From: Deuterostichococcus epilithicus
Lineage: Eukaryota; Chlorophyta; Trebouxiophyceae; Prasiolales; Stichococcaceae
DNA length: 64,000 nucleotides
Direction: 5' to 3'
Assembly (NCBI GenBank): GCA_033439295.1
Contig: JAVTLE010000003.1
Coordinates: forward strand, 62,001 to 126,000
Within the stretch, counting starts at the first letter, position 1; each line of letters begins with the position of its first letter. Of the stretch, positions 171-58,452 are shown in pieces. Below the pieces are notes generated by a model. That model was not told the origin of the DNA. It saw nothing but the letters and a program-made list of their open reading frames with translations, and did not search any database. A program made the position numbers and the translations under genes.

Positions 171-1990
171 GACGGGGAGCTCACCAGGAAGCTGTACCAC
201 TGGGTGGCCGCCACGCTGTGCCGCCACGTGTGGAACCATCCGCCGGAGGAGGACGCACGGCGCCTGCAGCTGCAGCGGCGGAGGGAGCGGGAACGTGCGG
301 CGCGTGCTGCGGCGGCGGTCGCCGCGGCAGAGGCGGATCGGAGAGCGGCTGCCGCAGCAGAGGCGGCGATGTCGGCGCCGGCGGCGGGGACGGGGGCGGG
401 GCCCGAGCTGCGGAAGCCCAAGCCAGGTGGGGCGCTGGCGCGGGTGTGGCACACAGCTCCCGGCAGCTGCATGAGCTGACGTCCTTCTGGCCGGCTTTCC
501 ACCTTCCGCCTCGACTCATGCCTTGTGCCTGGGGCAGCGCTGCAACGCTTAAATCACTGCTGCTCTGTGTCGCAACCTGCAGATTGACGCGCCCAGGCAT
601 TGCTGCGCGACGCTAGCCGTCCCTCCACTCTGACCCTGGCCTCGGCGGTCTATAAGAGCATGAACCCTGCGACCGCTGCCTGCAGAGGAGGAGGCTCCGG
701 CGCCGCCGATGCGCCGCAGCGGGCGTGAGCAAAAGCGGCGCGTGAGCCTGGACCCGTCTCCCGCCAGGCCACCGCCAACGCCGCGCGTCCCCAAGCGCCG
801 CAGGTGCTAGCTTCTGGTCCGGGTCGAAGCCTCCTTCGAACCTGACATTCAGTTGTTGTGCATTTACTGGTCCTGGAAGATACAACAGCAGGGGGAAGCA
901 GCAGGGGGCCTTCGACGATGCACTCGCAGTGTGAGTCTGCACAGAGCTTTGGGTGTCCAGCCTGGGGCGCATGACAGCAAAGCCCTCCGCCAGACGCTGC
1001 GCGATCCACCCGCCTGACCTCGTCACGATTTCTGAGGCACACACTGCATCCGATATGTGGTCAGGCTGAGATGAGCAGTGCAAATTATCAAAGTCAGCGC
1101 TGTTGCTGCAGGCCGGGACCAGCTCAGCGCGCTGCCACTGCTGCAGCCGCCGCAGAGCCGGCCCGCCCTGAGGTATTCGCTTTCAATTGAGATGCCATGC
1201 CGTTGCCGTCATGCCAGCAAGCTGCACGAGCGTCCGTGACATTGTGCTGCTCGTCGATTCTCATTGCTCACGTTCGTAACGATGTTTGAGCACCTGGTCA
1301 AAGCCTACTCCACGAGGCGTCCGCTCAATGAACAGTGCTGTTCCTGTGCTTTGGCCGCACAGAACTGGCAGCCGGAGCTGTCGCTGCATCGCAAGGGCGA
1401 CAACCTCGCGCGCAGCTGGACAAACCCAGCACTGAGTCGCAACTACCAAGCTGCTATGGGTTTCTTCAATTTCACCTTGCCGAGCGCAGAATTGGCAGCT
1501 GGGGCTGTCCCTGTACCGAGAGGGCGGCAAGGCACGTGCGCAGCTCGAAAAGGCCCGGCGGCGGGCGGCGGCGCTGCTGCGAGCCGCCGGCGCCAGCCCG
1601 GTGAGCATTCCTACCATCGGGGTCCATCTTTAGCACCCCAGAGATGGAGGAAAGGCCGTGCTGCACAGATGGTTGACCACCGGGATTGGCCACTGGGGTT
1701 GGCCACCAGGCAGCGGGCATGGTAGCGGGTAGTCCAAACAGTGCGGGTCCGGCAGTCGGCAGCGCCAGGAGGAGCTGAGAGCTGCAATGAAGAGGAGGCA
1801 CCAACCACCCTCGTTCTCCTTCCCCTGGCCCCTTTCCCCTATCGGCTTCGACCTTACTACACGACTGCGCATCGCCGCTCATCCGCAGGCCAAGCTGCGG
1901 GAGGCGGTGGAGGTGCTCATGGACGCCAGCGGCGGCGCATCGGCCTTCCTGGCAGAGCGCTGCGAGGCGAAACTACTGCTTGAATATTGA
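171..1990 (+). CDS. Unidentified protein, 3' part (nuclear-type, basic)
   Basis: I do not recognise the family. Four exon-like blocks read on the plus strand. Block 171-426 carries LTRKLYHWVAATLCRHVW followed by an Arg/Ala-rich, probably coiled-coil stretch. Block 686-803 carries the basic segment MRRSGREQKRRVSLDPSP. Block 1490-1600 carries LSLYREGGKARAQLEKARRR. Terminal block 1889-1990 carries AKLREAVEVLMDASGG and ends at TGA. The joins 426/686 and 1600/1889 keep frame with good splice signals. The join 803/1490 does not, so an exon is probably missing between them. The 5' end lies off the window or upstream of 171. The basic, Ser-Pro-flanked segment suggests a nuclear protein, which is inference only. 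A degenerate copy of the third block sits at 1359-1424. Confidence 0.45.
1359..1551 (+). repeat. Tandem copy of an exon start (two degenerate copies)
   Basis: About 66 bases at 1359-1424 (NWQPELSLHRKGDNL when translated) resemble 1484-1551 (NWQLGLSLYREGGKA), which starts the third block of the first gene. The downstream copy has the better donor and reading frame. The upstream one looks like a decayed copy. Confidence 0.6.
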
Positions 1991-2275
1991 GTGCTGGCCG
2001 CGCCACTGGTGAGACGCGGCCTGACCACCAGCGCCAGTGCAGCGCGGCGAGGCGGTCAGACCGTCAGCAATGGCGGAATGAAGCACGGTGGCCGCAGAGG
2101 TCGCCGGAAGGCACCGCGGTCGCTCTGTCGGCGCCGCGGCCCGCTCGGGCGGTGTTCTCGCCGCCAATGCCCCTGGCCATGCCCCTCCCCTGATCGCATG
2201 TCAATGCCGCTGGCGGCGGGCGGGTTCAATCATCCAATCTTTTCCCACCCACCTAAACCGCCCGCCGTCGCCGAC

Positions 2276-3058: not shown

Positions 3059-3290
3059 GTGAGCACAGAAATTAGCAAAGAGATGTAATGGCAGAAGGCA
3101 TCCGGTAGAAAGTCACCAGCTTTGCCACAGCCCTCTCGGCCCAAGATTTACGTTTTGGCAGCCGCCGCTCGCGCCGGCGCCTCTTGCATTTCGCCTCCAG
3201 CATCAGGGCTGCAATAGCGCTAGCACTAATAGCTACCGGCTGTTTGAGACGACAATCTGCGACCCTTTCGCTCTACGTCGTCGGCTTCGG

Positions 3291-3488
3291 ACACACCGCG
3301 GAGCCAGACCAACTTTGTACCGTGCGCGGCGCGGCCGTCAAGGTGTTACAGTTGGACGATTTTCAAGGGCTACGTGCTGCGGTCTCCGAATATCATCGGG
3401 TGTGGTGATTGCTCGGCCCCAGGCTTGGCGTTACTACACAAATGTGCACATGACCGCGACTGCTGGATCACGTTGCTGTTTCACGGCG
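3291..3488 (+). CDS. Possible PAN/apple-like Cys-rich exon
   Basis: One plus-strand frame gives CYSWTIFKGYVLRSPNIIG followed by a C-x2-C, C and C spacing around HKCAHDRDCW. The order GY-x-L, paired cysteines, then C-x5-C and a hydrophobic tail resembles PAN/apple modules of secreted proteins. The match is by eye and the exon borders are not defined. The other two frames are also partly open, so this could be a chance reading. Confidence 0.25.
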
Positions 3489-10357: not shown

Positions 10358-13300
10358 TCATGAGGCGTACGGCTGCGCCAAGCGGTCCCTGACAGCCTTA
10401 CCCCAGTTGTTGGGCTGCAGTGACGCCAGCGCAGTTGCGCCAACGTGGCAGCCCAGATCTGGGCCGCCCGCTGATGGCGCCGGCAGCAGCATGCTGGGGT
10501 CGTTTTGCTCGCTGAAGCTCCAAGCCAGCCATGGCACCCCCCTGCAGAGCGCAACGCAGCAGGCACTGCATTCATTGATCTCTCCACATGATGCCAACGC
10601 GGCCTTAAAATCCATTCGTTCAAAGCCGGCTACCACCCCAATCTACTCAGGAAGGCGTGTGCAATGCTTTTTGAATCATAGTTGTGCAGATGTGGCTGAA
10701 ACACACATGACGCGTCAAGAGCGGCCGTGCGCCAGCGCCAGACTCGACTTTACGTCAGGGTTATCACCTGGACTCTGCCAGTGCCATCAGCTGTTGCGCC
10801 TCGGCAACCGTCTCATCCTCTTTTGGCGGGCTCAGCACCTGGCTGGGCCCAAACTCGCCCACAATGATGGGGAGTTTCGCCGCAGGGCCAGTGAGGTACG
10901 CCGCGAATTGATCGGCGTGATCATAGATGTGTGTTTCATAAATGACGTTGCGGCCGTCCCCAGCAGTTATGGGGTGGCTGATGTAGTAGTCCAGCACGCG
11001 GGACCAAGATCTCGTGCCCTGGCAGCCAATGACACTTGATTGTAAGTCTGGGGCACGCAAGTCCTCAGACTGCATTTGATGCTGATGTTACACGCATCCA
11101 CAGGCCGAGATCATCGAGTCGACACCCGGGGCAGAGGCCGCCGCACACAAGAGCGCACAGTGCTTGCGCTTGCATTGGTGCACGCACAACTCGACTGACA
11201 TTGCAGGTTACCGAATCAGGCACAGCAGCGACTCGAAACTCAGTGCAACAACGCGCCTGCACGGCAACCAAGTGCTGGACACTGCCAGCAGCAGTTTCCG
11301 CCTGGCGTATTGCAGCCACTGCAGAGTTCATGGCCGTCCAGCAGCGGCCGTCGTCCGCGCCATTGTAGTTCTCTGCCATTGAGGGCGGGCACGTGCAACC
11401 ATCAGGGATCTTGATGCTGCACTCGTCGCTGTCGTTGTGCAGTGTGCAGTGGTCAAGCAGACCGTTTAACAAGGTGGGTACAGGGAGAGTCAGCCTGTTG
11501 TGTTGGCCTAGGCTGGCATGCTGCCACAAATGCAAATCTGACAAGACGCGCATGGACACGGGTTGCGTGGCAGAACGCACTCTGTGGCTCGTTGGCCACG
11601 CCCCAGATGAGGTGCGGCATGGACGCCAGCCGCGAGACCAGGAGCCGCCACCGGTCATTGGTGCCCTCTGTCGGCCAGCCGCCTGGCTGCCCTGGTGCAT
11701 CTTTGGTCAGCGTGGGGTCCTGCGGCGCAATGCCAGTACAGTCGGCAACATGCCTGGCGCATATGCTCCAGCGCTACTATGGCGCTTGCAGGGCGCTCGC
11801 AGATGCAATGCACAGCTGGGCTGCCAGGGCGCACAGCCAAATGGATCATTATTATAGTAAGGTTTGCTGTGCCGATGTTTTAAGGCACACAAGTCAAACT
11901 CGTTCCTTAACGATCATGAGCAAAAGCTAGACCAGCTGCTTGATTTCGTGCAACACTCCTGTGGCAGCATATATGCTGTGGTTCTGAGCATCCTTGCAGC
12001 AGCAAACATGCGGCAAAGCGCGCCTGCCAGATGGTGATCATTATGTAGGCACCCGGGTGATTTTCCAGCACATGGCGTGCTACACGCTCGACAGCAGCAA
12101 CGTAGCCAAAGGGATCGTCCCCGGGCGCGCCGCTCAGGCCGTCCCAGGCGGCAGGAGTGTCGGGGTACTGCTCAGTGGGCACCAGGCTCTCAAGCGTTAG
12201 GCGGAACAGATTGGCTCCCCAACCCACCTGAACACAAATGACAGGGTTCATTGTTCGGCGCTGGTGGCACAGGTAGTATAGGCGGCAGTAGAACCACAAT
12301 AACAGAGGGACGGTTTGCACATGTAAATAGCATGATGTACCAGTTGCCTGACCAAATCTCCACTGCCATGGGTCATGCAGGGCACAAGCAAGATCAGCGC
12401 TTTGAGCCGCTCACCGCGGTGTCAATGCGACGAATGACTTCTGCTGTAGTGTCTGCCGTTGAGTAGTCCGTGGGCGAGCACTGGCTGCATGGGCGGCGCA
12501 ACATTTGAGATGAGTGCCCACACGCAACGAGCGGCACTACACGCACTTCGATGACACGTTGAGGTGCCACAATGCGACATCGAGGTAGTGGTAGCTTGCA
12601 AGAGCGTTTGGAGGGAGGCTGGTGCTCGAACATGCAAGCACCTGTTGAAGCGCATGTCGGGGATGTTGACGCCGCGAGCCCGCCATGCGCTGCCGTCGGC
12701 GGTCAGGATGCGGATGCCGGAGGTATGTAGGGTCTGCGTGTTCGCTGTCGGCGTTGGCATCGGCGTGGGTGCGGGCGCTGGCGTTGGCGTTGGCATGNGC
12801 GCAGGCNTTGGCGTGGGTGCGGGCGCAGGTGTGGGCGCGGGTGCGGGGGTGGGCGTGCGCGTGGGGGTCGGCACCCGTGTAGGAATTTGCGTGGGCACAG
12901 GCGTTGGTGGCAGGCTGGCGCTCAGCAGCTGAATGCCATCGATGAGGAGCGCCGGCTGGGCCGCGCTCTGGCTCGTGCGCAAGAATACGCTGCGCATTTT
13001 CTGGCTGCCCGCCGGCAAGCCGTGCAACGCCGATAGCGGCACACGCACGCGGGTCCAGGCGTTGGCGGGCACGCGGCCGCCTGGCAGGTATAGCGCCAGC
13101 GAGGTTGCATACTTCTGCAGGCCCGCTGGCGTGGGCACTTGAATGCCAACCTACAGGCGGGTGGAATCTTGAACGTTATCGGCCAGACACGATTGTGGTA
13201 GCTGACAGCGCTTTGCTCCAGAGGAAGTGCCGTGGTGAATAAGACAGAACAAGCACGCAGCGGGCGAGTAACGCGCCTCGAGGGCGCGCTGGCCACCGCT

Positions 13301-21300: not shown

Positions 21301-21689
21301 CGTGTTCGAGGACCGGCTGCCGGGCCGCGCCATCATCATCTGCGTCATCGACAACCTGGTCAAGGTGCAATTGCAGATAGAGGACCGAGCTTTGTTGAAC
21401 CTTTTCAGTATGCACCTCGGCATGCGCCTGTGCAGACCTTTGGCATGATGAACAGCAGAGGCGACACGCCCGCAAAGGAGCACTCTGCCCGTGGCCTTCC
21501 AGCTCTGCCGGTTGCTGCCGACGCAGTGCTCAGCAGATGACCAGGCAGAGCACCCATGCACAAGCCCTGAAGCCCCTTGCCATTCGCTGCACGACGCAGG
21601 GCGCCAGCGGGCAGGCGCTGCAGAACATGAACCTCGTGATGGGGCTGCCGGAGGAGACGGGGCTGCTGCAGCAGGCCATGTTCCCGTGA
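18344..21689 (+). CDS. argC: N-acetyl-gamma-glutamyl-phosphate reductase (plastid, arginine synthesis)
   Basis: ArgC reduces N-acetylglutamyl phosphate to the semialdehyde with NADPH in arginine biosynthesis, normally in the plastid of algae. The core exons are 18501-18656, 18901-19026, 19290-19378, 19719-19890, 20160-20300, 20541-20711, 21236-21364 and 21600-21689. All join in frame. The NADP-binding motif is [12 protein letters not shown] and the catalytic Cys is in [23 protein letters not shown] and MPFSRGME follow, and the end is [12 protein letters not shown]. The start is tentative: ATG 18344 opens a short Arg/Ser/Cys-rich stretch that could be a transit peptide, spliced at 18428/18478, but that intron would be only 49 bases. 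Introns starting at 19027 and 20301 use GC donors. The intron before 21236 holds two degenerate copies of the following exon start. Confidence 0.9.
20995..21290 (+). repeat. Three degenerate copies of an argC exon edge
   Basis: The real acceptor plus exon start is 21229-21290 (encoding [15 protein letters not shown]). A close copy lies at 21112-21172 and a more decayed one at 20995-21037, both in the preceding intron. The intronic copies have drifted in sequence and at the CAG/G boundary. Confidence 0.8.
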
Positions 21690-26007: not shown

Positions 26008-30689
<4,682 letters not shown>

Positions 30690-34415: not shown

Positions 34416-34767
34416 TCAGTCGACATCCTCGCGAACGTCACTGGCGGCGCCCGTGCGCAGCGCCAGCCACGCGATTCTCGTTATCAGGGAGAACCTGTGC
34501 GGTGGCATTGGGCCCTGTTTCAGTCTTCTGCGCATTTTGCTCATGATCTCCCACCCAAATCTTTGATTGCTGGTCGTCGGGTTCCGCGGCTAAGGGCGCC
34601 TGCAGTTGCTTCACCTGCAACCACGAGAGCCGCGCCCGCCCCTCCCTCTTGCCCCAGCGTCACATACAGCAGGCCAAACGTCACCTCAATCGTCGTCCTC
34701 CTCACGGCTGTCGTCGGGCGACCCAGTGCGCATTGCATTCCATGCGATCTTCGTGATGAGGGAGAAC
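34416..34767 (-). repeat. Duplicated terminal exon of the ceramide synthase gene
   Basis: Two homologous terminal exons lie 191 bases apart (34767-34686 and 34494-34416). Both keep reading frame, acceptor and stop, unlike the decayed exon copies elsewhere in the window. Confidence 0.85.
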
Positions 34768-38493: not shown

Positions 38494-41400
38494 TCACCGC
38501 TCGTCGTCGGTGCCGGGGTCATTCGAGCCACTCGGTAGTTGCGCTGCCGCCTGAACCACGCTATTGTAATGCTCCCCCAGCTCATATGCGTGCCGCTGGT
38601 AGCTGACCCGCAGCGGCGGCCCATTGTCTGCGCATGACCAACACCTTTTCAATCTTGGAATGCCCGAGAGTGTTGATGAGGTCGTACAGATCCCACATCC
38701 AGCCTGCCAGGTCCGATGTCAGCGCATGCGCAGGTGACAGCACCTGCCTCGAGGACAGCGGAGGGGGAGTCCTAGCTCACACCCGGAGCGTCTGTCTCCG
38801 CTCCTGGCAGTGTCGGCATTCAAGCGACAACCCCCGCCTCCCGCTCGTTTACGACAGCGCACCAGTGCAGCAAACTGCTGCCGAGGACTCCGATTTTACA
38901 ATCAGCAGCATCAGGCTGAGCCTCAACAGGAAGCCTCAAAACAGCCGACAGGCCTGCGGTTCCCAAACCTGTTTCTACCGACCTGCATACTCCTCGCCCA
39001 TGGCAACGGTGGGCATGCCGGCAGAGTAGACGTCGATGCGGCGCCGCAGCACGTGGGCCAAAGCTCCCAGCTCCGCCTGACCGCCCCAGACCGCGGACGC
39101 CGCCATCGAGTCGCAGTACCGCTGGAACTGCTCGTGCGCGTCTGTGCCCTCGCCCTCAGACGCCTCCTGCGGAGCGTTCACGCCCACATGCTCACAATTG
39201 GCGCACCCATATTCTGATCTTCAAGGTTGCTGCCTGCCGATACACGCGAGCTCACGCCCTCGCCCTCTGCGATGGTGGGTAGCTCAAACATGGGTCACCC
39301 CGGAAATCCAGCCCTGTGTGCTGCATATGTCCTCAACTACAGGAACCGGCGCAGTGCTCTGCCGGCCTGTCAGCAGGTCGGCCACGTGCAGGTGCGCCCT
39401 GCCAGGGCAGCAACAGCTGCCTGCACTTTAGCCTCCCCGGCCCAGCGCGCTACGGAATGGCGACAAACGGGTCCCACGCTCCAGCACAGTGCCCGACGGC
39501 AGCACAAACGGCACGTCCCGTCACGTCGCATCACCCACTGGCAGCCCGAGGGGCGCTAACTCGCATGCGCACCGGCAGCACGAAGGGCGCGAACTCCTTC
39601 TCGTGGCTCCGCATGTAGTCTGCGGCGGCGGCGCGCAGCGCCTCGTGGCCGGGCGCCTCCGCGCCGCCCTCTGCCTGGATCTGGTCCTCCAGCGCCCGGT
39701 AGAGGCAGTTGCCGTCCGGCTGCAGGAAGCAGGAAGGAGCCTCACTGCACCGTACTGAGCCGCTGTGCTGCAGACACTGCCAATGGAGCGGTGGTTGCTG
39801 CGAGCAGGGCTCTGGGCCATGCGATCGCTGTTGCGCAGCGCCAGCCCCAGGAGCTGGCCGGATGGAAGCCCCACCGGGATGTCGCGCAGCGCCAGCCCCA
39901 GCGGCTCCAGCAGGCGCGCGAGCTCCGCCTCCTCCAGCTGGCGGTTGCTGTCGCCCATGGCCCCCTGCTCCTCCGCGATGCGCTGCTCCCGCTCCACCTG
40001 ACGGCACCAAAGGAGCACTTCTTGATTGCTATCGTTGAAGGCCAGGCGGACAGGTTCCCGTTTCCCAGGGCCGCCTGCCACTCGGGTATGTGCTGCTCCC
40101 CCTCCACCTGCCGGCAGATGTTGGTTCAATGATTGGATCAAAGGCAGCAATCTCCGGAATCTTGGCGGGAGCCTCGTACAGAGGGCCCGCTTGATTGTCC
40201 GCTGTGCGCTGCTCCCGCTCCGCCTGTACCAGCAGTAAGTTGCCGGTCGTCAGGTCCAGACCCACGCAGAGGCTTAATAGAGGGCCGCGCACGGCCCCGC
40301 ATTGCAGGCAGTGCGGCAGTGCAGCAGTACTATCCTTGCACGGCCGGCGGGATGGGCGTGCCACCGGCAGCGCAGGTCCTGCTACGCGGTCCCGCTGCGG
40401 AGACCTGCCCTAAACTGTGGTGCGACGAATGCAATCGAGGATCCTAGGCGCTGGCGGAGTGCGATCGGGATGGGCACTGTCGTACCTGCTGCTGTGCGGC
40501 CTTCTCCCGCCGCTTCATGGCCCGTGACGACTCCTGCGCGTGCACAGCGGTGCCTCAGCGGGCAACCGGAGGCTAGCATCTGTGTAGGGCTCAAGGGGGG
40601 TCAACGCTGGACGGTGGTGCGACGCCCTGGGCCCATGCACACAAGCACTTGCTCGATCGACCGCAGCCTGCCTCCTGCTGCGGCATGCAACTGCCCCAAA
40701 CAGAATGCCAGCGTCTCATCATCCTCAAGGGTCCAGCACGGGTCGCCCATCCAGGTCTGCCACTCAAAGAGCGCTCGCCTTCTTGTCAGACTTGCCCCCG
40801 TCCTCGACTGCGAGGCCATACAAATTCTGCGCTACGAGCGCCTCAGCGCCGGCATCGCTGCCGTCTGCTGCCGGCTGCGTCAATGCGCCAGCATCCAGCG
40901 CTGCGAGTTCTGCCGCGTGATGTTCGGCTGTGTCTGCTTCCAGCTTCTCGCCCTCCTCCTGCAACACGCACAGGTTATTGGCGCCTCAAATGCACATATG
41001 TGCTGAACTTGGGAAGCCTCGACTCCTGATTTCAATGTTGGATGGGGCTGCTGCAGGGCACGCCAGCCTGGTCAGGTTGTGCAGGTTCATGTGGGGCAAC
41101 TGATGCCGCATGTGCAGCAATGCGCAGCCCACCTTGCGCTTTTTGCCGAGCTTTTTTAAAGCCTCTTTCACAGCCTTCACCTCCTGCGTAAGTGCAGAAG
41201 GAATACAACGCTGCCCGGACTCATCATTCTCGGGCTGTCCACTCAGACTGTCCGCATTGCGAGAGTTGTCAGCACCCGCCATGCTCAGCACCTTGACAAT
41301 TGCGCATGATGACGCACCCGCTTGTGCCGCTGCAGCATCTGGCCCCTGGTCTCATGCTTCGGCACGTCCGCCGCATCCGCTGAGGGCGTCGCTGCCTGCA

Positions 41401-42788: not shown

Positions 42789-45700
42789 ATGTCCCGTTCG
42801 CAGGTGGCGGGCCACCTGTTTGAAGGTGCAAAATCTGTCCGACACAGCCTGGCCTGTATCCGAGGCTGCTCAGAGTGTCACACAGTGGCGAGGCACCCAC
42901 GCATATCTGTTGTTCTGTCTCTTCTCTGCAGCCACAGCAGGAACATCAGTGAGCCGTGCTGCTGCACGTGTGCAGAGGGGAAAGCCGGGTCGTTGGTCGA
43001 TGATGCAGGCCACTTTTACAAGCCGCTGCAGGTGCGCCGCTGCGGGCAGGAACTTCTGCCATTTGCCACGCGCAGCAGATGCATTGTCATTAATGCAACA
43101 GAGCCTGAAAGCGCAGCGGCTCGAGGCTGCACGGCCTCTGCAGTGTCCCTCGCAGTGGCTGCCAACAGCAGCCAAGCCGCGGCGCCCTCCCCCCCGGTGT
43201 GTTCTGTGGCAACTGGCTGCAACCGGCTGCCCTGCTGCCTGCAGCACGGACCGCGTGGCGACCGGGAGCTGCGCTTCTACGAGCTGGTCAAGGAGCTGGC
43301 GGAGGAGTGCACGCCGGATCTGACGGCAGCGCTACGGGCTTTGGACCCCTTCTCGGCGGCACGCCCCGAGCGCCGCCGCGCCTCCTTCGATGGTGGGCCG
43401 AAAGCTCAGCTCAGACATGCCACAGACGTGCCAGAGCAAGCGGGATGGCACAGGAAACGACAGGAGCCGTTTGCTGTTACCTGCTGATCCTGCCGACAGA
43501 AAACTGGCGACGAGCAAGGCACCGCGCTTGCCGGGTGTACGCCGTGCTGCCGCAGCCACTGCCGTGCCGATGCTATGCCGCTGCTCTGTTGACTCACACC
43601 TGTGGTTGTGCCCTCCTGCAGAGCAGCAGGTGTCGACCAGAGCTCGCAGCGCCGGTAGCGGCGGCAATGGCGTCCGCCGCTCCACCGCTGAGGACGGCCT
43701 CCTACGCGGCAACGCCACAGGTACCCGTTCGATACACATGGAAAGAGTTGGTCGTCCTTCTGGATTGCACTTGCCCGCCGCATGCCGCTGCGGGGCGGAT
43801 AGCTTCTCCTATCCTACTCGCTGCCCGAGGCGACACGGCACCAATCTCCTGCATGCCGCGTTTGTGCCATGGCGCTGTTATGCAGCATGGAGGGCCTGCC
43901 CTCTAATCAAGCCACCAGCAGCAGGTGTGTGCCTGACACCTCTCGCTAATGGCCCATCCCACAGTTACCAGCCGCGGCAAGATAGAAGCGTGGCCGCGCT
44001 CCCCCAGCAAGCACGAGCCGCTCAACACGAGCAGCGAGCTGCTGGGCGCCTCCCCCGTCGGCTCCCTAGGCTCTCAGTACTCCGACGGCCTTGCCGCCGG
44101 CAGCTGGCGCACCGAGAGCTGGCGGCCCGACAAGGACGAGCTGACGAAGAACCTGGTGTGGGGGGCGCCCGCGGCGCCAAAGCGGCCACCACCGCTGGCC
44201 GTGACAAAGCTGGGCACCGGCGCGCTGAAGCCGAAGTCCGGGCTGGGGCCGGCGCTGGTGGCGGCGCAGCCTGGTGGCGGCGGTGCGGAGCAGCGCCACT
44301 GCGGCGAGTGGCCTCGCGGCAATGGCGCAGGCAATGCCGCCGAGCCGGCCAGCGCAGGCTCCTTTGGCAGCCCTTTTGCGCATGCATCTCAGCAGATGGC
44401 GGCAAATGCATTCTCGCCCCTGGCGGCGGCGGCGGCAGCCACCGGCGGGGGCTTGGTGGCGGGCGGCTTCCGAGAGGCACCCATTCCACCGGCTGCATGT
44501 CCGGCCGACAGCACTAGTGCGACATTGTCAGCGTCAGCGCCGGCCTCATTGCTACCGGAGGCGAAGCCAGCAATGGGTCAGCCAGGGAGCAGGCAGGTGC
44601 CAGCTCCAAATGACAGCCTGCCGCACGGCTCGTCAGCGGGTGCGGCCGAGCCCCCAGTGCAGCCAGCTGCAGCGTGCCATGCGGACGCCAGCATGCTGGT
44701 GCAGCCGCCGTCACAGCAGCCACAGCAGCAGCCGGCAACAGAGTGGCAGCCACATGCCAGTGCGTTGCCGCCGGGCGGACTCAGCACGCAGCTGGGCGCG
44801 ACATCAGGAGAGCGTTTGGCAGCAGTTGGCAGCGGCGTCACGGGCGGCAGCAGCTCGCCCGCAGCAGCCCCGGCTGCCGCTGGTGCGACCCCTGCGGCAG
44901 CTGACGACTTGGCGCAGCATCGTGGCAGCACCGGCGGCGCCGGCAGCCAGGTGATGGCGGCGCTGCCTGCCGCGGCCGACGGGCCCTCGGCATCGCAGGC
45001 GGTCGCCGCCGGCACTACGGTGCAGGCAGGCCCTGCCGCACGGGACCACAGCGTCAGCAGCAATTTGGCGGTGCCAGCGGCCCCGGGCGCTCGAGACCAC
45101 GGCTTTGGGAACGGCTACATGATGCCTTACCAGCGGCAGGCGGCCTTCGTGCTGCGCAACGCGCCCATGCTTCGCGCCATCCCCCGCTTCTGTAAGTGAC
45201 CTATCGTCTTGTTTTCCCTATTGCCTCATGCTGGATCACGCTGCAGAACTCTTTCTGCCTCGTTCCTCGAGAGCATTCTGCTTAAGTCAGCTGCCTGCCT
45301 GCTCTCTGGCTGGGGTTGTCACTGGATGTCGTGCCGGTGGCATGCCTCTGCATGTGCCTGGGGTCATCGTCTTTGCCGTATTGGCCTTTTTAACCATCAG
45401 CCCTCACGTCGGTCGCGCTGCGTGTGCAGACGGAACAGTGCAGGGTGAGGACTGCCTGTTGCTGGAGCTGGAGGATGTGGCAAAGGCGTATAAGCGCCCC
45501 TCCATCATCGATATCAAGGTACAAGCTTCCACACTCCTCAGCTCTTTCCACCCTGCCCCCCCCCCCCTCCCCCTCTTCCCCCCCAGTCCACTGCGTGCCA
45601 CTGCTCCTGCGGAGTGGAGATTGTGTGGCAGTGGGGTCGTCCTTGAGTCCTCATGCNATCCCTCNATCATCGACATCAAGATGCGTTTGGTGCACGATGT

Positions 45701-47844: not shown

Positions 47845-50800
47845 ATGGCGCTGAGCGAGCCAAGAACGGCTGTGGTAACCGGCGCAACAGGGTAAGCAGG
47901 ATGCGCATTGGATTGGATCCAGCCTACATGTTTGCAAAGCTTCGTTGGCGAACTTGCTGCCCGCTTTTGTGCCTTCGCATCAGGCACAGACTTAATTGCA
48001 AACGTGTGCATGTTGTCGTCAAAAAAATCTCAGGCTGTAACCGAGGGGTACGTTAGCGAATGCCCTGGAACGACATCATGCAGACCACATGCGTATGCCT
48101 GCTTGCACTACCACCACGGGTATGCATCAGGCACACTGTGCCGCAGCAGCTGTCGCGGGCCACAATGGACATACGCTTTTCTATAGATGAGAGAAACGTT
48201 CTATCATGCACCGTCGACAGCATCCGGCGGGCACCAGACCACTGCTGCTGCACACATGCTCCGTGAAGCGGCAAACGTCTAATCGTCCAGCTCATGCAAT
48301 GAGGCGGTCTTTCAGTTCTCTTACCCTGCCCTGCGCAGCATCCTGGGCCCCACCTGGGGGGCTGGCACGCTGTTGGAGGTGCTGCAGAAGCACATCACAA
48401 GGGGTGCCAGCCGCCGCTGTCCCCTCCGCTCCCGTCCGCTGTCCCCGGCCTGTCACTCGTGTAGTAGAGATGACCCTGAATGCACGAGCCTCACTCGCCG
48501 TTTGCCGCCGGGCTGCGCAGGATCCAGGGACGCGCGCTGCTGGAGGTACTGGAGAAGCACGAGGAGTGGCAGGACATCATCGCGGTGTCGCGCAAGCCCC
48601 TGGACTTCAAGTCCCGCGCCCAGCACCTGGCCCTGGACCTCACTGACCGACCTGCCATCGCCAAGGTGCCGATGATGGCTCGAGCATTCCTCCCATCTTT
48701 GCATCTGGTTGGTTGATGTGGGAAAATATGTCATGGAGAACCGGTGGAAGGAAATTCCTGCATGGGCAAAGCGCCTGGCCCTGCGGAACTCACCAATCGC
48801 TTGGGCCGCCGTCACCGCGGTGCCGCCACGACTGCTGACATCTATAATATTGGTGAAGGGACGAACAGAGATGCCGGGGTACGGGCGCTCGCTCCTCCTT
48901 TGTGACCGCTGCAATGAAACAATCAACGTGGCCCTGAGCCCCTGACGAAGGGGGCCTGCTGTCATCTGTGCCTCGGAGCCGTGCTGCTGTGAGCCTGTTG
49001 AATGTGTCGGTTCGGAGCCATGAGCATGTGAGCATGACCTGGTGCTGCCTAGGGCCAGTTGCCCCAGAGCGGTGCTGCCCAATACGGCGCCCCTGACTGG
49101 TCACACCTTGTGGGTCCCGACACACAAGGTGTGACTAGTGGGTCCCAGAGTGTGCGGACTGTTGTCGGGTCCTTTTCCGGCAGACGCAAGGGCGTGGCAA
49201 ATCTGGTTGTTTGCTGCGCCATGTTAGTGTCGGCTCCTGTTGTGGCGCAGGCCTTCAAGGACGCCAGAATCAACCTGGCGTCGCAAGTGTACGTCTTCCA
49301 CCTCGCATTCAGCGGGTGCGGTGGTGTCCCCGCCAGCTGGCGGTGCTTCGTGGTGCTTGCATCGCAGACGCGCACCTACCGCTGAATACACCTGCCGCTG
49401 TTTGTGCCTTGCTGCCGGGGGCTGGTGATGAGTCCGCCGGCGATGGAATCGCCGCATTGGAACCTTGCGTGGTCAACAGGAGAGCAGCGATGATGGCCAC
49501 ATCTGTGTGCTGCTCTTCATGCCTGCCTGGGAACGAGCGCCTCTGCTGCCAGCGCAGGGACATGACGAACGTGGACCGTTCGGTGGCGGACATGCTGGCC
49601 GACGTGGTGGAGGGTCTGGAGGAGGCGGGCGCCCCGATCAAGCACGTGTACTTCACCCTGGGCCTCAAGTTTTATGGTAATTCGTGTACAGCCCGCATGA
49701 TTTCCTTCCGAGGTGCTTTCCGAGTTTTGGCAGCGGGCACATCTACTTCACGCCGAGCAACCGAACACACGACATGCAGTACAATGGCGGGATTCTGGTG
49801 CGGTCCCATTTTTGTGGGGATGTCTAGATGGTTTTGAAGTGAGCACCGCAGCAGTAGCGGCAGGGCACTGAGCGATTTGTATGCCCAGATTTACCTTCAT
49901 CGGGGGGCCGGTGGGCAACACCGAGGCAATCCAACATGATCAACAGAAAAACAGCTTTGGCAACTTCCTCCATGCTCAAAATGGCTGCCGAGTTACTCAA
50001 CTCGAGAATCATGCAGGCGTGCACTGGGGCGAGACCAAGACGCCGTTCGACGAGAGCGACCAGCGCCACCTACCACCTAAGTAAACTTATACGAAAGTCT
50101 GGTCACTGTGACTTACAAGACCCTCAGCACAGCACCAGGACTAGCCATCAGAAACAGCTCGACGTTGAGACGCACTGACAGCCATGGAGTCAGCGCAAGG
50201 AGGACTGCACACCACTAAACACTTGCACACCAACTGCTCGACCCTGCTAGATTGTGATGTAGTTCTGAAACTGCTGTCAGATAATGCGCTGGGCAATGCA
50301 ACTGACCACCTCGCACTTGCAAATGCAGCTACTACTACGATATCGAGGACTACGCCATCAAGCGCCGCGCTGACGGCGCTCCCTGGACCTGGTTCGATTT
50401 CGTCATTGCGATGTTCTCTGCGAATCTGCTCGTCCGGCATCTGTGCTTTTGCTGGCGTCTTGCCAGCGATGGAGATGGCGACGATGCATTTGCCAGCAGC
50501 GGACTCCTTGGCGGCACTTGATGTCACGCTGATGTTGAGGCTGCACACTCGACACAGGAGCAGCCTGCGCCCTGGGTGCATCATTGGCTACTCGTCAGGC
50601 CACACCATGAACCTGCTGCAGGCAACTAAATGTTCCAACAACCTGAGGACCTTGAAGTTGATTAGCGGCAATGAGCTTGCACATCGGGTCGACGCATTTG
50701 GCTGTACACTGGAGCTCCTTTGCTGAGTGATGCGGTGAGTGTCACTCTAAGCCCAGGGGGTGCCTGCTCGCGCAGGTTATTGCCGCCTATGGGGCCATCT

Positions 50801-52957
50801 GCAAGGAGCTGGGCATCGCCATGCGGCAAGTGAAAGCGCCACATACAGCTAAATGTTGATGGGTCATTGAAAACCACAACACACCATGTGCTGCACCCAC
50901 ATCTACTCGCTGCCACTGTCTACTGCGACATGACAGTTGACCTTGCATTCGTTGCTATCTATCTGGTAGAGATGCTCTCTGGGTGGAAAAAGTTATGGGC
51001 GCAGATGCGCAGCTGTTGGGTTCTGCGCAGCTTCCCCGGCACGCTGGAGGCATACCATGCGCTGACGGAGAACGTGGACGCCCGCCTGCTCATGAAGGCC
51101 GCGTTGTTCACGTCCACCCACCCCAGCGTGAGTGGTGGTGAAAACAGGGCCCAAATGGTTCAGCAGGAGACTTGGGTGGACAGCGCTGAGTGTGCAGGGC
51201 CGCGGATGTGTGTCACATCGGAGCGGCGCCGATATCTGGGAGTTGCACAATAGCCGGTTGCAGCCAATGCTCAGCCAGCGCTTGCTGACGACAAGGTGCT
51301 GTGCTAACATGTGGCGCAGGCGGCCAACAACAGCTACAACATCAACGATGGTGCGTGCTCCACCACTTGTCAAAGCGTGTAGAAGACTGCCGAGCAGCAC
51401 ATCACATTAGCACCAGCTCGAGAAGGAGTGCCAGATGCTAAACTGGCAAAATGATCATGCTGTGCGGCGCTGCAGGAGATGTCTTCCGCTGGGTACGCCA
51501 CTTTCTGGAGGACACCAGGAGTCCAGACGCCTGCATTCCGACATTCATCTCCTGTCATGCACAGACAACCACAAGAGTAGCCGGGCCTGGGATTCTCAAT
51601 TTCCCTGCCTGTGCAATCGCTAAATTGCTGACCCGATGTGTCTGGCAGGAAGAGGTGTGGCCCCAGATTGCAGCCTGGTTCGGGAACGAAGCTGCGCCGC
51701 CCCTGAAGGTGCCGCTGGCCACGCTGATGCCCAAGCACGCCGGCGTGTGGAAGGCCATGCAGGCCGAGCACAACCTCAAGGCAGGCGGCTGCCTCACTGG
51801 ATCTGATCCAGTAATGATCCAGTGGATCATGAAGTGGCAGTAATCGAATGCCAAGATGACAGGCAGCAGGCATGGCTGTCGTGCTGGCCACTGTCGGTGC
51901 CAGCCAAGCCATGGTGCTCTCTGCGGTCATGGCATCTTTAGTTGCTTCAGGCTCCTCAGAAGACTCGGTCAACCTTGCGCAGCGCAATTGGTATTGGTAA
52001 ATACCACTCCGGATGTGTCAGCTACTGCTTTGGGGACAATTTGAGAAATGTCGGCCGCCTACTCATTCACTGCTGCTGCCTGTGTGAATCTGACGACGCT
52101 TCTCTGGGTCCCTTCACCACCGCGCAGGTGCAGGTGCCGCTGCAGGAGGCCGTCAACTTCGAGTTCGGCGACGCGACCTTCGGCATGGAGTACCCCACCT
52201 TCTCCAACACCACCAAGATGTGCGCCGCCACCCCGGGCCGCATCATAGTGTGGCTCGTTATTGCAGCCGCTGCTGCTGCCTGCAGCTTCTACCGTACTGC
52301 TGTGATGTGCTGCTGCGTTCCGAGACATGCCGCCGCTGCAGTGTTTCGTGTTGAACCTCGTCAACCTGAAACAAGGCCCCATGGATGTCCTATGTAATGT
52401 CGGTGACGCTCGACCTCTTTCTCGCCAATGCCATCCCGCAGCCGCCAGGCGGGCTTCAACAATCACGTGAGCACGGCGGCCAACTACATTGCGCGCCTTG
52501 AGGAGCTTGTCTACCTGGGCTTCATCCCCCGTTACACGCCGAAGACGCACATCCCGGCGCCGCCCGACCGCGTGCTGGTTAAGACGCAGGCACAGCGCTC
52601 CATTCAACACTAGGGTTGGGTTGTTGAGGATTGATGGTCAGTCATTATTCACCGTGACGGTCTGCCTGCACTGCTGCGCCCTCCCTCCAAAGGTGGAGCC
52701 GCTGGTGCTATCGTGTGGCCCGAGCCGCCCGGCGCCGCCTACGTACGGCTGCGTCAGAGACGAACGTGCACGGGAGACAGGTTACGGATGAAGCAGGTGC
52801 TGATGATCATTCCTTCTTCTACCTGCTGCAGGCGCGGCCAGCGGGCACGCTGGCTCCAGATTCCCCCAAGAGCCCCAAGTCACCCAAGTCGCCGCCCAAA
52901 TCGCAAGGGAAAACGCCCACGTTGCCTGCTGATGGGTCGCCCAAGGCCAAAGGCTGA
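47845..52957 (+). CDS. PRISE-type short-chain reductase, copy 1
   Basis: Exons 47845-47891, 48521-48665, 49251-49315, 49558-49676, 50017-50080, 50329-50391, 50558-50621, 50776-50825, 51031-51127, 51320-51350, 51476-51492, 51649-51780, 52128-52219 and 52442-52613 join to 385 residues. Related plant enzymes are NADPH-dependent reductases of activated C=C bonds (progesterone 5-beta-reductase, iridoid synthase); the substrate here is unknown. The Rossmann motif AVVTGATG is at the N-terminus. The catalytic Lys is in GLKFYG and the Tyr in NYYYDIED. RPGCIIGYSSGHTMNL, CKELGIAMRFPGT and EEVWPQIAAWFG follow. A 17-base microexon encodes GDVFRW. Three introns use GC donors (50622, 50826, 51781). An alternative last exon at 52832-52957, used if splicing occurs after DRVL, adds an SPKSPKSPKSPP tail. 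Confidence 0.9.
49096..49139. repeat. Perfect 12-bp inverted repeat (hairpin) in a PRISE intron
   Basis: TCACACCTTGTG at 49101-49112 pairs with CACAAGGTGTGA at 49123-49134 across a 10-base loop. The flanks extend the pairing with one mismatch. GTGGGTCCC occurs both in the loop and just after the hairpin. Confidence 0.75.
51795..51829. repeat. Overlapping GATC palindromes in a PRISE intron
   Basis: CACTGGATC at 51795 pairs with GATCCAGTG at 51816, and ACTGGATC also pairs with GATCCAGT at 51805. The block lies 15 bases after a GC donor (51781). Confidence 0.6.
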
Positions 52958-53500
52958 ATGAGCACTGACCATGTGAGCCTGCGCAGCGAGCAGTCTCAAA
53001 GGCAAGCTGCCCCCATTCTAGGCAGCGCAGAAACTCTTATGGTTTTTTTGGACGAGGCTTTGAGAATATGGGATCCCATATTCCTCCGGAGATTCTGGCT
53101 TAGCTGATCATCCTGGCGGCAGCAGGTTTCAAGGTCCGACTGTCGCAACATGACTGCCGCGAGGCGCCGTTGCTAAAGTGCTACTAATGCGGGCCTGGGT
53201 CTGGCGAATGGAGTGCAGATTGAGTGAGTGCTCGACCGTTGTGTTTGGAAAGTACTTCGTGTAAAGATCTAGAAAAGCTGAAGTTTCATTATTGCATGAC
53301 AATGAATTTCTTTGCAAATTCCGCCAGCGCGCTACATGTACTTCCTGCTTTCCGGAGCACTACTGCAAAAATGCTTACACATTCCCATCAAGTGTTGTAA
53401 GTTGTGCAGTCTTCCGGCGATTCTGCAATCTCGTTTGTTCTGGCTACAGCTGTGGAAAATCAGGCGGCAAAGAGACCCGCAGAAGACCGCAGCAACGGGC
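52958..53500. other. Gap between the two PRISE genes; AT-richer
   Basis: Noticeably lower GC around 53200-53470. No exon was supported. It likely holds the promoter of copy 2. Confidence 0.45.
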
Positions 53501-56500
53501 ATGACGATGGTGGGTGACAAGGTCGCACTAATCACTGGCGCCACAGGCAGGCCTCTCGCATGTTCCTCATCGATCTCACAGCCTCAAAGAACCAGCTTTA
53601 AGCATCAAGGCCTGCTGTCTAGACTGCGAGTCGAGCCTTGATTTCATCAGTAGAAAAGAGATGATGCAGCACTGCAATGCCAGCATCGGAGCAATTTGTT
53701 AAATCATGCCCAGCAGTCAGGACCAATCGAGGTCCGCATAACCTCGATTCCTTTTCAATATGCAATGTCGTTCGGCCATGATGCAGGCATCCAGGGTCGG
53801 GCTTTAGTGAGATTGTTGGACCGCCAGGAAAAGGTATGTCCTGCTCCTGTGCAAAGACACTTCGCTGCCTCAAGCAGAAGTGCTGCGAATTTTGAGAACG
53901 CCGGCTAGCAATGTGTCACCGTCTAGGGCGTCAATAACGATGACCGCCGTTGATCACCATTACTAATAATGGCTTCTAGCAGCACGACGCTGCTGGAGCC
54001 GCTTTCTTGGCGAGCTGGTCAAGGATTGCATGTTCCTTTGTTGTCTGACAGGAGTGGGATGCAGTGTATGCGGTTAGCCGACGGCCACTGGACTACGAGG
54101 TATGCTGTCGTCCCACGCACTACTGAGTAGCTTCTGTGTGCATCTGTCTTGCTCAACACTGGCGGTGTGCATCTGGCTGGCTCATAGTTTGCAGCATTCT
54201 CGAGATGCAGGTTTCGCGCACCAAGCACCTGCAAATCGACCTGTCAGACCCCGATGCCGTCAAGAAGGTGAGGCGTTCGTCAGCAACAGCCGGCGCTGGC
54301 CACAGCAGTTTGCTCGGTTTTTGCTCTGCCAATCTCAACCAAAGTGCAGCACGGCCGCGTGTAAGACGATGCAGCGTGCAGGTTTACTCAGTGACATCAG
54401 CCCTGAGCGCAATGCAGATCCACCTGCCTGTCTCCGGAGGTGCATTGGTCTCTGGCACACTAGCTGTTGCAGCTACAACGACGCCGCGCAACAGCGCAAG
54501 CTACGACAATGCTACACTGTTACATCGCAGGTGCTCAACCAGGTGGACCTCAAAGTAACACATCTGTTTCACCTGGCATTTGCCGGGTGCGGTACTGCCC
54601 CTTTTGCTGGCAGCCTTGTTATATATCATGCCGGATCATTTTTGTAGCACGCTCCGGATCCTTTCCTTGCCCTCTCTTGGGCGACTACATTCCAAAGCTG
54701 GAAGCACCGCGCGGCAGTTCCCTTCATTCCGCAAGGATACCTTCACCTTCTACACTGCAGCTCAGGCCCTATTAGGACGCTGTGAGGCTGCTGGAAATTA
54801 AGCAATAAATTTCGCATGGGCAGGGCAGAACTTCTGCATGACGTTGTCTTGCCTGCCTGCCGCAGGGACCAGACCAACGTCGACGAGAGCGTGGCGGAAT
54901 GGCTCAAGCATGTGGTCGAGGGCGCAGAGGCCACAGGCCACACCCTGCAGCATGTGTTCTTCGAGGAGGTGTGCACAATGTTACATCTGAACACCGACAT
55001 CAACACATTTTCAACAGCAATTATTCTACTGCACACTCAAGGCCGCCTCCAGTAAATGCGTTCAATGTCCACCCCGTGCATGAACGTGCTGACTTTTCAC
55101 AGCCCGCCACTGCACACCATGGGACCTGCAGCGCTTTCACATTCCATGATAATGCCGACGCGCCGCCGTTTTTGTGCAGGGCATCAAGTACTACGGTTCG
55201 CCTTCGTCCTTGCCTGCAGCAGCTCCCTTCCCCTGTCGGTTCTGTGCTTGTGCTGCTATTGAAATTCTGCTAACGCTCCTGTGCCTGGAGTGCGTGCCCC
55301 GAGCGACGATGCAGTGACCAGCAGCTACTGGCACATTGCTCAACCACTTGCTATGAGAGTCCAGTTATTGCTGCTGTCGCGCCGTAGGATTCCACTGGGG
55401 CCCGCCCAAGACGCCCTTCCGCGAGGACGACCCCCGACACCTGCCGCCAAAGTACGCCCAGGCCAGCTGCATGCTGCTGACAACGGTTACACCTCTCCTG
55501 ACGACAGCCCTGCTGTGGACTTCACTTTATCGCACTGGACCCTGTGCGCTTGGGATTAATGGTTCCATCGGCAGTCTGCTTCATACACGTGCTTGCGTGC
55601 ACATGACAGCTACTACTACCCGGGTGAGGATTACCTCATCGCGCGCATCGCGTCCGGCGCCCCTTGGACCTGGTGCGACAAGATATTTTCTGACATGCCT
55701 GCTGAATATAAATATGTATAATATTTCCCTGCTAAACATATTTCTGCTGGAGATCGTCCAAGCAGCCCACCACGACGCTTGCGACCTTGCAGCGGCAGTG
55801 CACTCACACGCTGCTGCTTTGCAAGAAGCCCCCATCAACCTGCCGTGCCGCTTGGGGTTGTGGCTTGTGTTGGCCATACTCGCCCTGCCTGCTGGCGCTG
55901 TCTCATCCATGCTTCATTCAATGGCAATGTTTTTTAAAGCCATAAAAAGCCAACCACTGTGCAGGAGCGCCCTTCGCCCAGGCGCCATTGTCGGCTACTC
56001 GCTGCGGACCGCTATGAACCTGCTCAGCGTGCGGCCACCGCTCACCTGGCCGTGGGCCAGCATCCTTATAGTTCGCATTGCTGCTAACGCACTTGGCCGC
56101 CGGCTGCCGACCTCGTCTGACGCTTGCGCTGGTGCATGCCACCACATTACTTTGTGTGAGCCCCGTCATGAAGTTCCAGCAGCTGCCCTGCACCGCCTGT
56201 GGACGCAGGTGATTGCAGTGTACGGCACAATCTGCAAGGAGCTGGGCATCGCCATGCGGTGAAGATTGAATGCCTGACTCTGCGACAGGAGCCTGCCATG
56301 CCTGGACACAGATATTGCTTCTCTGTGCTGCATCCTCCCATCACACCTGTGATGCGATGCTAGTATGGCCAGGACAGCAACAGCAGGAGCAGGCTCTAGA
56401 AGCACAGCAGCCTGGATATGCCTGCTCCGCACGACATCTCGCAGCACTCGCTTCTGCGTGCAGCTTCCCCGGGACCGCCAAGACCTACTACGACACAGTG

Positions 56501-58452
56501 CAGGAGGTGCGAAGGCGGAAATGGCGCTGCACCTTAGTGGACCTAGAGGCTGCTCCTCGCTTCAGGCCTCTTGATGTGCGCGGGTCTGTACGTTGCAAAC
56601 TCCCTGGAGGGCGAGCTCCCTCGTTCCTCCAGGGCGAGGGTGTGAGGCCACCATCGTCGTGTATGGATTGACTCATCCGAGAATGCAACAACTGACTAGT
56701 ACTGGATTGCCATTGAAGTCATGCAACAGCTACGATGCCACTGACTGCAGGTCGCAGTACTGGACCGCCATTAGATGTTTGCAGCAGCTGTGCCACTGAC
56801 TGCAGTTCGCAGAGGCCGAGCTGCTGATGCACGCCGCGGTGTTCACGTCCACCCACAAGGGCGCCGCCAACAACGCCTACAACTGCAGCAACGGTGCGCA
56901 CATGCGCACATGCGCACGGTGCGCACATGCGCACATGCGCACATGCGCACGGTGCGCACAACGGTGTGCATGTGAAAGAATATTCACCATTTGCATGTAC
57001 TTGTGCTGGCGTGCAATTGTTTTGCCTCGAAGAAAGCTGGTGTGTGGTCAACATCGCTCGGTCGTCTGCTAACTGCTGTGTTGTGGATGTTGAGCAGGTG
57101 ACACCTTCCGCTGGTGCGTCTTGATTGATGCTGTCCTCCTCCATGACTGCATTCATTTCGTGAATTTCGCCAGTCCAACGATCCATGATGCACACGAGTC
57201 ACGAGCGCCTGCCACTCGGTCGCTTTCGGTATCAACACCGCCAGCTCCGGGTTGTAGAGCTCGAACTCATCTGGCTCGTTGGACTTCAGCGCCGCCTGCA
57301 GGGTCGTCTGGCTCATGTTCGTGAGTGCTTAATTGACGACGATGATAGTGGACAGAAGCCAGCACAAAGCACACTGCTTTGCGACAGGAATCAAGGCTGA
57401 TCGCCTGTGAAGATTTTCAAGAAAAACACAATGATTTGCCGCAGGGCGTACCTGTGGCCGAAGCTGGCGGCCTGGTTCGGCCTGGAAGCGGGGCCGCCGC
57501 TCAAAATCCCGCTGACCACGCTGATGGCCAAGCACGAGAAGACCTGGGCCGCCATTCAGGTGACAGCCGACGATATGCTTCGTCTGCATGCATGCAAGCA
57601 GTCATGAGCGCTGCTGCATGCCTGAGCTCAGGTCCGCTGCAGTTGGGCCTTGTCTGCCACGACAAGCCCATGGCATGGCCAGTGAGACACCAGCGCAGCA
57701 ACAAGCCATTGTGCACCTCTGCGATGCAGGAGAAGCACAACCTAAAGCTGCGCAAGCCAATGCCGGAGATCGTGGACTGGCGCTTTGGCGACGCCATGTT
57801 TAGCCCCGAGGTCGACCTGTTCTCCGACACCACCAAGCTGTGCGTCCCTACACGCTTGTTGCGGTCTACTGACTGTTCAAACACGTCGTGTATGGCTTCG
57901 ATACACCGCACGGCCCGTGCTGGCGTGCCAGGCGGCGTTGGCCCATAAATCATCGGCTCACGCTTTGCTGCACGAGTGTAACATTCTGCACAGAACCTGC
58001 TTTTTTTAACGCATGTGCATCGGAGCAGTATTGAGACGTCGACAGGCTTCCGGGTCAATGTCGCGGTGCAGGCGCCAGGCGGGATTCGAAGGCATGAAGG
58101 TACGGCGCGCCATTTCGTAGGTCTGGGCCAGGCCTTCTTGCTGATATTTGCAAAGCCGCCTCACCGTGAGCCCTGCTGGACTGCGCACCATCCCGCACGC
58201 CCAGTAGGCGCAGTCACGAAAGCGCTGGCAGAGGAGAATCATTTCTCCTGGAGGATGTCAGATCTGCACAAAGGAGAACGCCTCTGCACGCAGCTGGGCA
58301 CGGGCACCATGTTCTACCACAAGTTCAACTACCTGGCGAACATCGGCCTCATCCCCTACGGCGAGGGCAACGAAATCACCAAGGGGCTGCCGCCCGCTGA
58401 CAAGGTGCCTGTTTCCAGAGACGATTCGGAGCTGCGTCGATTTGATGCGTGA
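53501..58452 (+). CDS. PRISE-type short-chain reductase, copy 2
   Basis: Eighteen exons join in frame to 390 residues: 53501-53546, 53787-53833, 54052-54099, 54211-54267, 54531-54586, 54866-54968, 55180-55195, 55388-55451, 55610-55672, 55965-56028, 56209-56258, 56464-56506, 56806-56893, 57098-57113, 57445-57559, 57730-57839, 58072-58099, 58294-58452. It is a tandem paralogue of the gene just upstream, same family and strand: ALITGATG, catalytic Lys in GIKYYG, Tyr in NYYYPGED, RPGAIVGYSLRTAMN, CKELGIAMRFPGT. The C-terminus differs, with a Gly/Pro-rich end after FNYLANIGLIP. It has 18 exons against 14 in copy 1, including two 16-base microexons. The first intron uses a GC donor (53547). Substrate is unknown. 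Confidence 0.9.
56733..56818 (+). repeat. Copy of a splice-acceptor region in PRISE copy 2
   Basis: GCCACTGACTGCAGGTCGCAG at about 56738 recurs at 56793 as GCCACTGACTGCAGTTCGCAG. The second copy is the acceptor of exon 56806-56893. The first, 55 bases upstream, is a decoy copy. Confidence 0.8.
56890..56962 (+). repeat. Microsatellite grown from a splice donor
   Basis: Units of CACATGCG repeat with interspersed CGGTGCGCAC, starting at the GTGCGC donor after 56893. The donor-like CGGTGCGCAC string occurs three times in the tract. Confidence 0.85.

Follow-up and report, generated by a model that had tools for sequence, protein, structure and literature searches.

Why do degenerate fragments of exons recur inside the introns next to them? 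This question is raised by a stretch of 64,000 nucleotides from the alga Deuterostichococcus epilithicus (contig JAVTLE010000003.1, positions 62,001 to 126,000), referred to as the window, in which several genes carry short copies of an exon boundary in the neighbouring intron. In a preceding analysis by a model, the sequence-only reading, these 'exon echoes' were interpreted as successive stages of intron gain by tandem duplication of AGGT-containing segments. The copies of exon edges are confirmed here to be real. They probably represent remnants of short tandem duplications of an ordinary kind, which extended over a splice junction already present and made the intron longer. The 64-kb window alone served as the data basis for the following results.

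Copies of exon edges and their placement

The window, which shows a GC (guanine plus cytosine) content of 56–66% in 4-kb steps and contains many short introns, is probably green-alga nuclear DNA. Gene structures were predicted ab initio and region by region with a small hidden-Markov parser trained on hand-read exons. Junctions were changed by hand in the first gene model (g1) and in the models for GCN5, PRISE1, PRISE2 and ceramide synthase, and both PRISE genes were refined further. The resulting set comprises 16 models with 114 introns (median length 235 bases), 17,648 exon bases and 28,649 intron bases. Pfam families were matched for 11 of the 15 model proteins tested (7/8 and 4/7).

Local repeats were recorded by gapped self-alignment at offsets of 15–399 bases and a score of at least 15. 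Nine low-complexity stretches were masked prior to counting, and repeats within them are outside all counts. Two controls were applied, namely 20 far-offset bands (1.5–30 kb) and 20 dinucleotide-preserving shuffles within segments that are no longer than 150 bases and do not cross exon boundaries. In total, 18 repeat pairs were detected, compared with means of 0.83 in the far-offset bands (largest value 2.2) and 0.85 in the segment-wise shuffles (largest value 3). At a score of at least 18, 14 pairs were found as opposed to 0.14 and 0.05, respectively, and five pairs reached a score of at least 25, which was attained by none in either control. An ungapped scan (score at least 18) yielded 60 matches at distances of 20–600 bases versus eight at 3–30 kb, where about 1.5 times as many cells were covered. 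The offset is below 300 bases for 17 of the 18 pairs. This mechanical scan against composition-matched shuffles, run within the 64-kb window, revealed a strong excess of copies and bears out the contention of the sequence-only reading that their density exceeds chance.

When each copy is assigned to its predominant class, the 18 pairs include 11 exon–intron, three intron–intron, two intergenic and one exon–exon pair; the remaining exon–intergenic pair is the terminal exon of the ceramide synthase gene. With corrected PRISE junctions, an exon edge is spanned by nine pairs (random placement expects 4.0, p 0.006), and 14 pairs lie at most 12 bases from an edge (6.8 expected, p 0.0007); a pair at 4612 overlapping a modelled acceptor is counted in both numbers, so that the echoes proper amount to eight and 13. 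The first models gave eight edge-spanning pairs (p 0.03) and likewise 14 pairs within 12 bases, a value as high being obtained in 0 of 2000 random placements. The copies thus tend to lie at splice junctions, as had been proposed previously.

Edges with copies were identified at ten positions in seven gene models, which represent g1, argC, ceramide synthase, OTUD6, inositol polyphosphate kinase (weak), PRISE1 and PRISE2. Seven of these edges are acceptors and three are donors; judged by hand, this difference is not significant (simulation gave 2122 acceptor to 1969 donor cases). Echo pairs are 72–95% identical over matched blocks of 20–79 bases. From the seven genes named in the sequence-only reading, g1, argC, ceramide synthase, OTUD6 and PRISE2 were recovered and the inositol kinase was found weakly, but the GCN5 repeat was taken as purely intronic. 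An echo in PRISE1 and the OTUD6 pairs 39829/39880 and 39526/39561 extend this list. Five pairs do not qualify as echoes, i.e., 4612/4929 in an extracellular-protein gene, the GCN5 intron pair, 54136/54165 in a PRISE2 intron, and the intergenic pairs 31239/31289 and 59220/59250.

Probable tandem duplication across splice junctions and unequal decay

The proposed course of events begins with a head-to-tail tandem duplication of approximately 30–280 bases, presumably in a single step, with breakpoints astride an existing splice junction. One copy of the junction would stay in use, with its exon part held by selection, and the other copy would turn into intron sequence and decay freely, as its substitutions and gaps suggest. 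In their intron parts both copies would decay, at about twice the rate of a pair in which one copy is constrained, so that over time the exon edge alone would stay recognisable and assume the look of an exon echo. As the visible outcome, the intron would grow by about the duplicated length, and no new intron would arise. Survival would presumably require the spliceosome to go on using the junction at which the original exon begins or ends.

Whole repeat units were found to be alike over their full period at offsets of 29, 30, 35, 44, 50 and 58 bases (z 5.7–10.1). Moreover, three genes contain three-copy arrays of near-equal spacing. In argC (plus strand), the acceptor and start of exon 8 in use (21228–21284; exon 21236–21364, based on the gene model and matches to Pfam Semialdhyde_dh families) are preceded by a copy at 21112–21166 (84% identical, score 31.5, with single-base gaps relative to the exon) and by another at 20997–21036 (81% identical to 21227–21266), corresponding to offsets of 116 and 230. 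The ceramide synthase gene (minus strand) uses an acceptor and exon start at 35196–35250 (exon 35140–35232 of the gene model), which recur at 35321–35377 (79% identical, score 24) and 35443–35481 (82%, score 20), with offsets of 125 and 238. For OTUD6, also located on the minus strand, the acceptor and exon start in use at 39943–40006 (exon 39875–39997 of the gene model) are echoed at 40053–40116 (78% over 64 bases, score 29, frame open across the 19 codons compared) and at 40187–40226 (90% over the 29 bases 40198–40226, 80% over 40), the offsets being 110 and 226. The introns hosting these copies extend over 20712–21235 in argC and 39998–40485 in OTUD6.

Full-period likeness is most pronounced in PRISE2 (plus strand), where a 58-base tandem duplication (82% identical, z 10.1) consists of a first unit at 56698–56757 and a second one at 56756–56812; it reaches the acceptor at 56805/56806, and the second unit holds the acceptor in use together with seven exon bases. 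In OTUD6, the donor edge of exon 39573–39719 is echoed at 39526–39562 (81% identical to 39561–39596, full-period z 6.4), and the 3' end of exon 39875–39997 recurs at 39829–39855 with its partner at 39880 (95% over 22 bases, 89% over 27). The g1 echo of an acceptor and exon start (1357–1423, plus strand) lies within intron 1173–1489 and is 76% identical over 67 bases (score 26.5) to 1484–1551, which is taken as the used edge, with the exon starting at 1490 by hand and at 1499 in the automatic model. Furthermore, PRISE1 carries a copy of the acceptor and start of exon 2 at 48339–48393 (plus strand) within intron 47892–48520, obtained in a wider gapped alignment; its core 48365–48393 matches 48532–48560 at 86% over 29 bases. 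In the inositol polyphosphate kinase gene (plus strand), the exon end 45498–45518 is weakly echoed at 45660–45680. This copy is weak when taken alone, covering 21 bases at a score of 16, for which chance gives 0.61 pairs per window; it includes an N at 45665, and another N precedes it by three bases (45657).

The tandem duplication in GCN5 (28312–28379, plus strand, period 44 bases, 92% identical, unit z 7.0) was assigned to intron 28282–28521. The following exon start was placed by hand at 28522, where we assume it on the basis of the conservation of the family, the automatic model having 28361; with this placement, the pair 28312/28356 is wholly intronic. The GCN5 protein deduced without the extra stretch matches the Pfam GNAT and bromodomain families.

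Intron lengths are in line with growth by duplication. Within the window, the median length is 410 bases for introns with edge copies (n = 10) and 229 for the others (n = 104; p 7e-5), and subtraction of the duplicated length reduces the former value to 257 (p 0.13), nothing being subtracted for the terminal intron of the ceramide synthase gene. As a rough size of this effect, 10 of the 114 model introns of the window possess a recognisable edge copy.

To what extent unequal decay generates exon-limited matches was addressed by simulations of tandem duplications across acceptors, in which the exon part of the used copy was constrained and the rest was neutral; indel and constraint parameters were assumed. 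Among 371 detected cases with a geometry like the observed one, 68% showed a match restricted to the exon (at least 30 exon and at most 18 intron bases). A second run yielded 4020 matches, of which 1553 fell short of the edge altogether; where the match did span the edge (1564 cases), it extended no more than 18 bases into the intron in 51%. Random placement of duplications over the gene models put 59% of the detected matches at most 12 bases from an edge. Since neutral duplication followed by unequal decay often gives the pattern in simulation, a special mechanism is not needed. Selection keeping the copies, as suggested by spacers at random level, was considered and set aside, because unequal decay can suffice in the simulations, retention of the AG dinucleotide excepted.

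Coding comparisons describe the present state of the copies. Where one copy is constrained and the other free, our own expectation of the nonsynonymous/synonymous ratio between copy and exon is approximately 0.55. Values of 0.75 for g1, 0.53 for argC (10 codons), and 0.66 and 0.69 for OTUD6 were obtained, and the differences in OTUD6 and g1 are spread across codon positions. The terminal exon of the ceramide synthase gene (minus strand) behaves differently. The exon chosen by the model (34692–34770) and its second copy (34419–34497) are 72% identical over 79 bases, with a ratio of 0.39 and a synonymous difference of 0.65, third positions accounting for 14 of the 27 differences. The copy is open for 25 codons, ends in its own stop one codon before that of 34692–34770, and both exons carry acceptor sequences. 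Judging from these features, the copy is old and is probably kept by selection and used. It ranks among the most diverged copies and is not the youngest, and accordingly the series from intact to nearly erased copies, read earlier as stages of one process with this exon at its intact end, is not chronological.

Several observations weigh against tandem duplication and unequal decay as the origin of the echoes. In 12 of 13 comparisons, the spacers separating one copy from the next resemble each other no more than random sequence, PRISE1 (p 0.018) being the only one below 0.05, and for the OTUD6 copy of a donor edge at offset 51 there is no likeness beyond the matched block (z 0.1 and -0.9). Because spacer homology is not visible, the tandem origin of the longer and the offset-51 cases rests on spacing and simulation. 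Edge pairs are in excess of random placement (see the counts of nine and 14 above), and gene-body families at most 12 bases from an edge make up 10 of 12, compared with the simulated 59% (p 0.07; the extracellular-protein pair and the two intergenic pairs are left out). Shorter coding comparisons gave lower ratios, namely 0.35 for PRISE1 (9 codons) and 0 for the inositol kinase (7 codons, one difference). The AG was kept in nine of nine copied acceptors outside PRISE2, whereas 63–66% were simulated to retain it at the exact place; the corresponding p of 0.016–0.024 applies if the copies are independent, which those of three-copy arrays are not. Finally, the junctions derive from ab initio models and hand edits.

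Intron gain and other explanations

In the model of intron gain proposed earlier, an AGGT-containing exon segment is duplicated, and the two AGGT copies supply the donor and the acceptor of an intron formed in this way. The exon end plus intron start should then equal the intron end plus the start of the next exon; a repeat in register is expected because both new splice sites are copies of one site. No such donor/acceptor repeat with a score of at least 11 was found among the 104 introns shorter than 400 bases. Likewise, an ungapped in-register score of at least 11 occurred in 0 of 113 introns (0.57 in permuted pairs) and a score of at least 8 in three (10.3 permuted), a test that misses gains old enough for the repeat to have decayed. 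The layout observed instead places one copy at the real edge of the intron and the other one deeper in the same intron. Local duplications at splice junctions do exist in the window, and weak in-register scores slightly exceed the permuted ones (61 versus 51.3 introns at a score of at least 6, standard deviation 4.8; 30 versus 24.4 at a score of at least 7, standard deviation 3.9), but the small in-register excess of the upstream arm is unmatched downstream. In that arm, the last 20 exon bases and the last 20 intron bases share 6.16 matches compared with 5.61 after permutation (113 introns); the difference persists when permuting within genes (6.18 versus 5.65) and has no downstream counterpart.

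The neighbouring paralogues PRISE1 and PRISE2, encoding PRISE-type reductases (47845–58788), bear on the same question. Their proteins share 205 of 374 aligned residues. Eight intron positions are exactly common, three further ones either match to within one residue or occupy the same place in a different phase, and the last intron pair is six columns apart at a poorly aligned end. According to our reading of the alignment, six introns are specific to PRISE2 and two to PRISE1; this difference of about eight introns indicates that introns turn over here and speaks in favour of gain, as does the 58-base tandem repeat at the 3' end of the PRISE2-only intron 56507–56805. That repeat, which constitutes the PRISE2 echo, does not join both splice sites. 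The PRISE1 echo resides in the first intron common to both paralogues, which is 629 bases long in PRISE1 and 240 bases in PRISE2, and no pair is listed for the PRISE2 counterpart at a score of at least 13. The intron with the PRISE1 echo is hence also present in the paralogue, which argues against its birth by the duplication. A precedent for gain exists in potato, where duplication of the 3' side of an intron together with the 5' side of an exon can found a new intron (PMC4974935). Taken together, gain of the AGGT type is not supported by the window and is disfavoured for recent gains; as the source of the echoes it is considered very improbable. The PRISE pair represents good material for a study of intron gain and loss.

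A second possibility is that exons were duplicated in tandem long ago and retained as alternative exons, some of which are decaying now; that most spacers are at random level fits this possibility. It agrees with the ceramide synthase terminal exons, both of which are open to a stop and carry acceptor sequences, and with their ratio of 0.39, their synonymous difference of 0.65 and their differences at third positions. However, a whole open exon with a splice signal is confined to this case, and the remaining echoes correspond to partial exons. Furthermore, the argC copy has single-base gaps and an offset (116) smaller than the exon length (129), and the differences in OTUD6 and g1 are not concentrated by codon position; alternative exons are considered an unlikely explanation of the echoes. 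Break repair with short templated insertions, copying only the exon edge into the intron, would account for the unalike spacers in 12 of 13 comparisons and for the short matched blocks of 20–79 bases. It gives no reason for templates to start at splice sites and does not predict the near-equal spacing in three arrays or the whole-period likeness at six short offsets; moreover, exon-limited matches are expected anyway from tandem duplication with unequal decay, and templated insertion is likewise given little credence. Chance similarity or assembly artefact is the least probable explanation. Five N bases occur in the window (45657, 45665, 12798, 12807 and 9395), three of them in local repeats and one beside the inositol kinase copy, and an assembly error could account for the 98% identical intergenic pair 31239/31289. 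Chance is contradicted by the controls (0.83 and 0.85 pairs as against 18), and an identity of 72–95% is too low for misplaced alleles in most echo pairs; for most pairs, chance and artefact are refuted.

Ordinary mutation seen through unequal decay can thus mimic intron birth. A simple test discriminates between the two, i.e., whether repeats are in register with donor and acceptor or flank one junction only.

Copied acceptors, related systems and further repeats

Including PRISE2, an AG is present within four bases of the expected place in 10 of 10 copied acceptors, which are situated near positions 1363, 21006, 21120, 34494, 35358, 35471, 40107, 40223, 48339 and 56751. When the nine copied acceptors outside PRISE2 were compared with the used one by a scoring matrix trained on the same gene models, three (both OTUD6 copies and PRISE1) scored above it and six below. 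Of nine copy offsets as entered, only one is divisible by three, so that use of the copied acceptors would mostly shift the reading frame. This poses the question of why a similar upstream acceptor is passed over. Introns of Chlamydomonas and Volvox have been argued in a Volvox study to be recognised across the intron (PMC4378016), and recognition of this kind would favour the upstream acceptor copies. Survival of the copied acceptors suggests that splice sites may be paired across the exon here. A more far-reaching variant holds that echoed acceptors are not mere debris, that the alga pairs splice sites across the exon despite its short introns, and that introns grow stepwise at their 3' ends by tandem duplication, leaving decoy acceptors. 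This variant is regarded as unlikely; if true, decoy acceptors may tune splicing or feed nonsense-mediated decay.

The kind of event described is known, and the window provides numerous instances of it in a decayed state. Tandem exon duplication can give rise to alternative exons; it fits the terminal pair of the ceramide synthase gene, whereas the other cases match an exon edge only. For a potato RdRp gene, a tandem genomic duplication of the 3' side of an intron and the 5' side of the exon has been described (PMC4974935). The resemblance concerns the unit, which comprises intron end, acceptor and downstream exon start arranged head to tail; in potato a new intron arose, whereas here the extra copy stays in the old intron and decays. 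The potato report also mentions an 83-base tandem duplication within an intron that left the gene structure unchanged. The model of Rogers for intron gain from AGGT exon segments, as outlined in a review (PMC3443670) and in a report on Drosophila cases (PMC2891723), shares the local tandem duplication at splice-like sites, but in the window donor and acceptor are not two copies of one site. In primates and flies, short insertions arise mainly by tandem duplication (PMC2374710, which cites Messer and Arndt 2007 and Thomas et al. 2004). The same mutation is proposed to underlie the exonic, intronic and intergenic pairs described here, with the difference that it is observed after decay and mainly where selection on the exon holds one copy. 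In the open-licence literature searched, no description of exon-edge relics in algal introns was recognised.

Further repeats and splice-site variants were observed in the window. A near-perfect 40-base tandem duplication (98%, offset 50) is located at 31239–31329 between GCN5 and the MaoC gene; this pair (31239/31289) is the most alike among those listed at a score of at least 13, short perfect matches excepted, and is either young or an assembly error. Directly behind a PRISE2 exon donor, an array of eight copies of TGCGCACA with a higher unit of 33 bases at 100% extends from 56895 to 56960. A 12/24-base repeat at 12747–12910 (minus strand, model g5gh), masked before counting, encodes a linker rich in Thr-Pro/Ala-Pro. 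Moreover, GC donors occur in the argC model introns 19027–19289 (CAG/GCAAGC) and 20301–20540 (CAG/GCGGGC).

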